The translations under genes and the position numbers were made by a program. Shown here piece after piece: positions 37,952 to 40,900 of a DNA stretch of 64,000 bases (position 1 is the first letter of the stretch; each line of letters starts with the position of its first letter). Source of the stretch: Mytilus galloprovincialis (lineage: Eukaryota > Mollusca > Bivalvia > Mytilida > Mytilidae); the NCBI RefSeq assembly GCF_965363235.1, contig NC_134842.1:4739112-4803111 (forward strand), read 5' to 3'. Below the pieces are notes generated by a model. That model made no database searches and had not been told where the DNA came from. It worked only from the letters and a program-made list of their open reading frames with translations.

Positions 37952-40900
37952 CTAAAAATAAAACATGTGAAGTTAAGGTCAAATTCAACATGACTACAAT
38001 AAAACGTATATTCAGATTACAATCAATTGCTCATTCTTTTATGACAGTCTGCAATTGCTTTGAGTACACAACTTTTGTAAAATACTGATACATTGTAGTA
38101 TGTCAGCTGATAATTGTCCCACATAATGTATGTATGTATGGGTGTAAATGACGTCATTTAAAGCTCAACTAAATCATCTCATACAATAACTTTAATAATT
38201 TATACTTTTTCTTTAGTCTTAATTGATAGTGGCCTCATTGGCAATGAGACCACAACTCCTATAATTTTGCTTTAATAATAATGTTTAAGACATAGAAATT
38301 AAAATTGAGAATGGAAATGGGGAATATGTCAAAGAAACAACAACCCGACCAAAGAGCAGACAACAGCTGAAGGACACCACTGGGTCTTCAACACAGGGAG
38401 AAAATCCCTCACCTGAAAGGTTGGCCTCAGTTGACCCCTAAATAAAATTATGTACTAGTTCAGTGGAAATGGATGTCACACTAAATTCCAAAACATATAA
38501 ATGAAGTAAAATTAAAAATCATGTATAAGACTAACAAAGACCAGAGGCTCCAGACTTGAAACAGGTGCAAAAATGTGGCGGTGTTAAACATGTTTTGGGA
38601 GATATTTCCATCAATTCTTGAGCGTCTTATTCCCCAACAAATATCCCTGACTGTCAATGTTGATTACTTACCTATAATATTGTACATACAAAATGGACAT
38701 GTTCTATGATTGACCAACCAAGGATCTACGCATATACTGTGGAATTCATGGCAACATGGCAGTACACGTAAAACCTGAAATAATAGATAGACACACATAA
38801 ACAGTGGAACTCATGGCAACATGGCAATACACGTAAAACCTGAAATAATAGATAGACACATATACAGTGGAACTCATGGCAACATGGCAGTACACGTAAC
38901 ACCTGAAATAATAGATAGACACATATACAGTGGAACTCATGGCAACATGGCAGTACACGTAAAACCTGAAATAATAGATAGACACATATACAGTGGAACT
39001 CATGGCAACATGGCAGTACACGTAAAACCTGAAATAATAGATAGACACATAAACAGTGGAACTCATGGCAACATGGCAGTACACGTAAAACCTGAAATAA
39101 TAGATAGACACATATACTGTGGAATTCATGGCAACATGGCAGTACACGTAAAACCTGAAATAATAGATAGACACATTTACTGTGGAACTCATGACAACAT
39201 GGCAGTACACGTAAAACCTGAAATAATAGATAGACACATATACTGTGGAATTCATGGCAACATGGCAGTACACGTAAAACCTGAAATAATAGATAGACAC
39301 ATAAACAGTGGAACTCATGACAACATGGCAGTACACGTAAAACCTGAAATAATAGATAGACACATATACTGTGGAATTCATGGCAACATGGCAGTACACG
39401 TAAAACCTGAAATAATAGATAGACACATAAACAGTGGAACTCATGACAACATGGCAGTACACGTAAAACCTGAAATAATAGATAGACACATATACTGTGG
39501 AATTCATGGCAACATGGCAGTACACGTAAAACCTGAAATAATAGATAGACACATAAACCGTGGAACTCATGGCATCATGGCAGTACAAGTAAAACCTGAA
39601 ATAATAGATAGACACACATATACTGTGGAACTCATGGCAACATGGCAGTACACGTAAAACCTGAAATAATAGATAGACACATATACTGTGGAACTCATGA
39701 CAACATGGCAGTACACGTAAAACCTGAAATAATAGATAGACACATAAACCGTGGAACTCATGGCAACATGGCAGTACACGTAAAACCTGAAATAATAGAT
39801 AGACACATAAACAGTGGAACTCATGACAACATGGCAGTACACGTAAAACCTGAAATAATAGATAGACACATATACTGTGGAATTCATGGCAACATGGCAG
39901 TACACGTAAAACCTGAAATAATAGATAGACACATATACTGTGGAATTCATGGCAACATGGCAGTACACGTAAAACCTGAAATAATAGATAGACACATAAA
40001 CCGTGGAACTCATGGCATCTCACTTTTTTTAATCTTTATAGTAAAAGCAAATTTTGAAATCAAAATGGCAATAATTAAACATGTTCACTATGTAAAATAT
40101 TCTAAGTCAATGAATCATGACTAATGATGAAGGCTGAATAACCTTTCTGATATTTGAATGTACAACAGATCGTTCCTGGTTTGTCAATGTTGTGCTATAT
40201 ATCTATATATGAGTAATTGAAATGTTACCTGTCCTTCTTTATATTCTTCTAAACATATTGCACAACTATCACCATTAGAGGAAGTTTGACTATAAACATC
40301 TGAGGTAGGGGAGGTAAGTCTTGTCAAACTTTTTTCTTTTATACACTGGTACTTTCTGGTTTCTAGTTTAGCTATTGCCTGTTTTGCCAGCTCAGACATG
40401 GACAGCTGAAATGAATAAACAAAATCTTTATGGCAACATAATTGTTTGTTTAAATACAGATGTGTATTGCAAGTTCACACCAATAACAAACTGCATTAGG
40501 CATAATTATTTGGTGAACAAAGTATACGCTTTGCTCATTAGTGAAGGCTGTATGGTGACCTATTGTTGTTAATTTCTGTGTCATTAGGTCTCTTGTAGAG
40601 AGTTGTCTCATTGGAAATCATACCACATCTTCTTTTTTATATTTATACCTCCACTTTCACATTGATTGATGTTTTATAGGTAGAGATATTACAAGCTCTA
40701 ACCATGATGTATTAGGTGATCTTAGGTATAATAATAACTATCAAACTGTTGATGCCTCAACATATTTATTTAACAGAACATCATGCAAGGTGTCACATGT
40801 TGAGCAGGAAATTCTTATTTTGTAATTTGTTTCATTAAATAATTCTTATTTTCTATCTATTCCTACAATTATTTGTATCTAAAGTGTATCTAATGATGCA

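Follow-up and report, generated by a model that had tools for sequence, protein, structure and literature searches.

Why should a splice acceptor of a mussel gene be present in 20 tandem copies, and does this multiplication serve the gene that carries it? The question is raised by a stretch of 64,000 nucleotides of Mytilus galloprovincialis DNA (C5:4739112-4803111 in a 1.385-Gb assembly of 331 contigs), referred to as a whole as the window, in which an earlier note had recognized a ZNRF3/RNF43 gene. The gene lies on the minus strand and was modeled as ten exons and 893 codons in one open frame, with the exons joined at consensus splice sites. Exons 2–9 spliced from the window, likewise at consensus sites, gave an open frame of 816 residues. 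The exons are listed below by their positions in the window.

Outside the window, in L004: exon 1, 63 codons, starting MIFGS.
58563..58676, minus strand: exon 2, ectodomain; the donor is the first copy of array C.
51166..51240, minus strand: exon 3, outside any array.
49055..49201, minus strand: exon 4, end of the ectodomain; the donor is the first copy of array B.
45812..45898, minus strand: exon 5, transmembrane helix, outside any array.
40992..41018, minus strand: exon 6, FKCRHREQQ, outside any array.
40229..40405, minus strand: exon 7, first half of the RING; the donor is joined to exon 8.
38672..38774, minus strand: exon 8, second half of the RING; donor GTAAGTAA; the acceptor is the last copy of array A.
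36251..37951, minus strand: exon 9, long cytoplasmic tail of 1701 nt.
32891..32952, minus strand: coding part of exon 10, SSVTVLMKDQTKHANGNAV followed by a stop.

The identity of the gene was assessed by comparison with known proteins and domains. As aligned with the 891-residue M. trossulus 'E3 ubiquitin-protein ligase ZNRF3-like', 855 of the 893 residues of the ten-exon model are identical, and in a protein search the model of exons 2–9 showed 95% identity to the M. trossulus protein and 92% to that of M. californianus. Residues 1–243 of the exon 2–9 product matched chain 8xfp_C of PDB entry 8xfp (human ZNRF3) with an E-value of 1.5e-62, and the alignment extends across the transmembrane helix and the RING. 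The Pfam families PF18212 (ZNRF_3_ecto, 104.4 bits) and PF13639 (zf-RING_2, 49.1 bits) both exceeded their cut-offs. As the ectodomain, transmembrane helix and RING-H2 matches lie in a single frame, the gene is a mussel ZNRF3 with its frame intact throughout, and the family assignment made earlier was borne out. The protein has the same ectodomain, transmembrane helix and RING-H2 as the known ZNRF3/RNF43 transmembrane E3 ligases. No oddity was noticed in the protein, whereas the introns are unusual.

The annotated proteins of M. trossulus and M. californianus, which are database annotations, are continuous across the three array junctions in the way expected from the exon-attached copies, and exon 8 is 97% identical to the M. 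trossulus protein. In M. edulis, entry P0004 begins only at exon 9, and its N-terminus was not found in the window. This short start may reflect a failed annotation across the array-bearing exons, or it may have another cause. Two-copy tandem duplications were observed inside exon 9 (36486-36632, 72 bp, in frame) and from the end of the ZNRF3 coding sequence into the 3' UTR (32808-32914, 54 bp). A second ZNRF3-like half-RING exon is present on the same contig (L071, C5:2427586-2427696); it is 68% identical to P0002 and may represent a paralogue. No tandem array was found in the 911 bases examined there.

The copies that raised the question form array A.

38731..40017, minus strand: array A, at the acceptor of exon 8, 20 copies (19 decoys), unit of 63 or 65 bp.

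TRF assigned this array a period of 63, 20.4 copies, 94% matches and a score of 2286. On the minus strand, 20 TTTCAG/G acceptors are spaced 63 bases apart, save that 65 bases separate 39660 from 39595 and 38839 from 38774, so the repeat analysis and the acceptor positions both agree with the 20 tandem copies counted in the earlier note. Each unit consists of the last 19 nt of the intron (TGTCTATCTATTATTTCAG) and the first 44 nt of exon 8, which is the part of the RING exon that the unit had been said to hold. The exon body is reached only from the 3'-most acceptor. A lone copy joined to the exon body had been placed at 38775; the single copy stands, but the first base of the exon is 38774.

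None of the 19 upstream acceptors is in frame with the exon body (insertions of 1 or 2 mod 3), as had been argued from the 65-bp intervals. When exon 7 was spliced computationally to each decoy, a premature stop was encountered in 19 of 19 cases, which agrees with the RING-less, truncated product predicted beforehand. Twelve of these stops fall 54 nt and six 74 nt before the exon 8/9 junction, while the decoy at 39595 has its stop inside its own unit. By the usual rule, stops far upstream of the last exon junction trigger NMD. Because exon 10 follows exon 9, the stops lie far upstream of the last junction and NMD is expected for the array A decoys; with this further junction after exon 9, the NMD outcome is if anything likelier than had been claimed. 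The nearest decoys would give exons of 168, 231 or 294 nt, and these would be the likeliest to leak.

Two further ZNRF3 arrays, as well as the same structure in unrelated genes, had been overlooked.

46653..49138, minus strand: array B, at the donor of exon 4, 27 copies (26 decoys), unit of 93 or 91 bp.
57312..58610, minus strand: array C, at the donor of exon 2, about 25 copies, unit of 51 bp.

The donor copies of array B span 49055-46663. Its unit combines 84 nt from the end of exon 4 with 9 nt of intron (GTAAGTATA), and GTAAGTATAA stands directly after each of the 27 donors. In array C the donor copies span 58563-57328, and the unit contains the last 41–43 nt of exon 2 and 8–10 nt of intron (GTATGAATG); a pattern search recovered 24 donor-like sites, 23 of which are decoys. 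With the other exons spliced normally, every decoy of both arrays leads to a stop, which in array B (26/26) falls past the ectodomain and before the membrane helix and in array C (23/23) falls at V-stop, inside the ectodomain. Arrays A, B and C share one geometry, the copy joined to the exon body being the outermost in each. TRF matches in array B (94%) equal those in array A, with 91% in array C, and variants recur in distant units.

An 8-nt sequence, GCTAGAAC, is common to exon 2 and the intron just past the last donor of array C. It could equally derive from a first duplication between short direct repeats or represent a ragged end to the last copy. Arrays flank exon 2 on either side: a 39-bp array at 58690-59063, with TTTATCTATAG in most of its units, ends a few bases before the exon 2 acceptor. 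No exon sequence was found in this array by eye, and it was therefore left uncounted.

Repeats are the usual site of assembly errors, and a long-read assembly could have collapsed or expanded the arrays. Nevertheless, the units differ by substitutions and 2-bp indels, and the three arrays in one gene, with more elsewhere, are each joined to intact exons. In addition, array A as a DNA query against the 1.385-Gb assembly was reported at one place, its own (repeat counts from this search are lower bounds). An assembly artefact is thus very unlikely to account for the arrays.

A second possibility is that the copies are tandem alternative exons of the Dscam type, that is, cassettes spliced in turn. 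The units do carry coding sequence, and a minus-strand frame of 429 codons is open through array A. In the Dscam arrangement, however, every copy is an exon in its own right, bounded by an acceptor and a donor, with an intron before the next. Here the intron between successive exon pieces measures only 19 nt in array A, 9 nt in array B and 8–10 nt in array C, and because only 8–19 nt intervene each copy has a single splice site instead of a pair. Moreover, use of a decoy leads to a stop, and alternative cassettes can be regarded as extremely improbable.

The earlier note had interpreted array A, lying as it does in a Wnt regulator, as a dedicated splice decoy. Applied to all three arrays, this interpretation holds that they bind spliceosome components and lower correct ZNRF3 splicing, with copy number tuning the amount of active Wnt inhibitor, or with dominant-negative or soluble forms arising. 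Some observations are consistent with it. The decoy splice-site bases match the real site in arrays A and B and mostly in array C, and every decoy product counted is truncated. None of the splice-site positions is variable in array A (0/15, against 9/48 other positions, P 0.07) or in array B (0/9 against 23/84, P 0.07), a hint of weak constraint on the decoys that is not seen in array C (3/9 against 15/42, P 0.61), where splice sites do vary. Selection on the decoy splice sites was rejected as a candidate, since the difference in conservation from the rest of the unit is not significant, and the proposal of a dedicated decoy is weakened to that extent. Searches limited by length and word sharing found neither a truncated Mytilus ZNRF3 isoform (two matches, both snails) nor, at E 0.001 among the 7995 best candidates, a protein reading through array A. 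The proposal is further weakened by arrays of similar build in the same gene and elsewhere in this genome, in kinesin and CCT genes, which point to a habit of the genome and not to a special Wnt switch. A functional decoy is accordingly unlikely, and a Wnt-specific function or regulation of the arrays is not supported.

The recurrence in other genes was quantified at exon edges of the CCT and kinesin families. An array was counted if it had a unit of 30–150 bp, at least 2.8 copies and an overlap with an exon edge within 25 bases. The edges are those of the HMM match and may differ from the splice sites, and flanks of 200 to 350 bases were covered, from which long-unit arrays could escape. For CCT/TCP-1 (PF00118), 45 of 49 matched exons were assessed (90 edges), leaving out C6:42370915 and C6:42370486 (one long reading frame), C3:96889212 (a long reading frame) and C3:68037846 (split). 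For kinesin (PF00225), entries 2 to 51 of 125 matches were assessed (100 edges); entry 1, one exon holding the whole domain, was left out. Arrays were present at 1 of the 90 CCT edges and at 8 of the 100 kinesin edges, together 9 of 190. The CCT array is the following.

C12:4804952-4807538 (L066 and L053): CCT donor array, at least 29 copies of 87 bp.

The donor GTAAGT occurs 27 times in the stretch examined, and the exon reads LRAFHNKSQTTKEHKDLRW. The array is probably longer, because it starts at the first base of that stretch. The eight kinesin arrays, at four acceptors and four donors, have units of 133, 118, 41, 90, 94, 50, 78 and 46 bp and 3 to 7 copies within the stretches examined, so that unit lengths outside ZNRF3 range from 41 to 133 bp. 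One further kinesin edge has an array of two copies. All nine counted arrays were checked by eye, and the unit of each was shown to contain exon coding sequence and the splice site. Left uncounted were L075 (82 bp, 2 copies), L039 (24 bp, 2 copies) and a 25-bp degenerate repeat located at the L072 donor. L072 is a kinesin exon (C3:107861516-107862313) with an acceptor array of 133 bp × 6, and by eye its other end apparently bears a degenerate second copy of the donor. A unit length that is a multiple of three was also considered as a general property and rejected: it held for the first four arrays (51, 63, 93 and 87 bp) and for only 6 of the 12 junction arrays (P 0.18).

Two controls were used to judge this frequency. 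In 16 stretches of 10 kb at round coordinates on seven contigs, possibly intergenic for the most part, the unit lengths of comparable arrays added up to 835 per 160,000 bases, corresponding to 0.99 expected among 190 edges (Poisson P 1e-6). From the density of the remaining arrays across the ZNRF3 gene span (introns), 1.8 among 190 would be expected (P 1e-4). The kinesin and CCT exon-edge arrays are thus 5 to 9 times as frequent as expected from random placement, and are not explained by random births; the excess could reflect a preference for exon edges in birth or in retention. The rates in kinesin and CCT differ (8/100 against 1/90, P 0.04), so the true genome rate is uncertain. In ZNRF3, 3 of 18 edges lie in junction arrays compared with 9 of 190 elsewhere (P 0.07), and 0.17 would be expected from the density of the gene's own other arrays (P 7e-4). 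As the locus was chosen for its array, no excess is claimed for ZNRF3.

Structures of this type are known from amphioxus as mirages. Reports on amphioxus, PMC3902484 among them, describe them as minisatellite-like duplications of intron/exon boundaries that do not disturb normal splicing, in the genes Adh3, the globins BflGb6 and BflGb9, TnC and PGBD5. The ZNRF3 arrays are most probably mirages as well, namely tolerated tandem duplications across exon edges that recur in the genome and are not specific to ZNRF3. Arrays A, B and C each span a real exon–intron boundary, and in these as in the kinesin and CCT arrays the unit comprises part of an exon, a splice signal and part of an intron.

As mirages, the arrays are predicted to have arisen as follows. 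A short segment straddling an exon–intron edge, with the splice site inside it, would have been duplicated in tandem by slippage or unequal exchange, giving a minisatellite, and in ZNRF3 the duplicated segments would then have expanded to 20–27 copies. Because such an array arises by duplication across the edge, the exon-attached copy is the outermost one and the gene survives the array; this copy alone remains continuous with the exon body, which leaves the extra copies within the intron. Normally the spliceosome would pick the exon-attached copy (the most upstream donor or the most downstream acceptor), and the rest would be removed as intron. Tolerance of the arrays would follow from splicing at the copy that adjoins the exon body, and they are presumably near-neutral. 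Mistaken use of a decoy in array C, with a stop in the ectodomain, or in array B, with a stop just after it, would lead to a secreted fragment or NMD. In array A, with a stop in the RING, it would lead to NMD or to a membrane protein without the RING.

Compared with the amphioxus mirages, which belong to a cephalochordate, the Mytilus arrays occur in a mollusc, three of them in one gene, and have been counted, at 9 of 190 sampled exon edges. The ZNRF3 and CCT arrays are also longer, at 20 to 27 or more copies, compared with 3 and 6 copies in two BflGb6 haplotypes; 3 to 7 were seen in the kinesin stretches examined. A donor-side parallel is provided by intron 7 of human F7 (IVS7), where, according to PMC6627357, highly homologous 37-bp repeats carry the real donor in the first repeat and splicing normally uses the most upstream donor alone. 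Arrays B and C are similar in that the authentic donor, as judged from homology of the spliced protein, is in the first, exon-attached copy. F7 IVS7 concerns the donor side only, and array A is its mirror image on the acceptor side. In the Rogers model, introns are reportedly gained by tandem duplication of AG/GT segments. Like the Mytilus arrays this involves tandem duplication of splice signals, but in the model a new intron arises, whereas in Mytilus an existing intron end was multiplied.

The mirage structure itself is therefore already known from amphioxus. In the open-access literature searched, no report of mollusc mirages was recognized and no paper on ZNRF3 together with Mytilus was found. 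As far as that literature shows, the new elements are mirages in a mollusc, their length, the presence of three in one gene and the estimate of genome frequency. More tentatively, exon–intron junctions of Mytilus may be preferred birthplaces of minisatellites, although we regard this as somewhat doubtful; if 9/190 applied across the whole genome, the genes with a splice site set among length-unstable copies of itself would number in the thousands.

Competition between identical splice sites is a classic test of spliceosome choice. The mussel runs this competition at several sites, each present in 20 or more copies, and the gene models still give an intact protein. If junctions are truly hot spots of repeat birth, mussels would offer a system for minisatellite nucleation at exon edges and for intron growth, in which it could be asked whether copy number shifts gene output. 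Were the 9/190 to hold genome-wide, the arrays would be a large untapped source of heritable, perhaps somatic, splicing variation. Array-flanked exons are also likely to mislead automatic annotation and short-read mapping.

Other features were observed in the window. On the plus strand, 3705-8057 is a reading frame of 1451 residues with a STAND NTPase domain (nSTAND3, 92 bits) and ankyrin repeats, preceded by a 30-bp array (1-3630) and followed by a 44-bp array (8264-8944). On the minus strand, 19895-23529 contains retrotransposon reverse-transcriptase frames (RVT_1, 59 bits in 19898-22078), and the reading frame at 23782-24549 is a nearly unchanged repeat of part of this retrotransposon.
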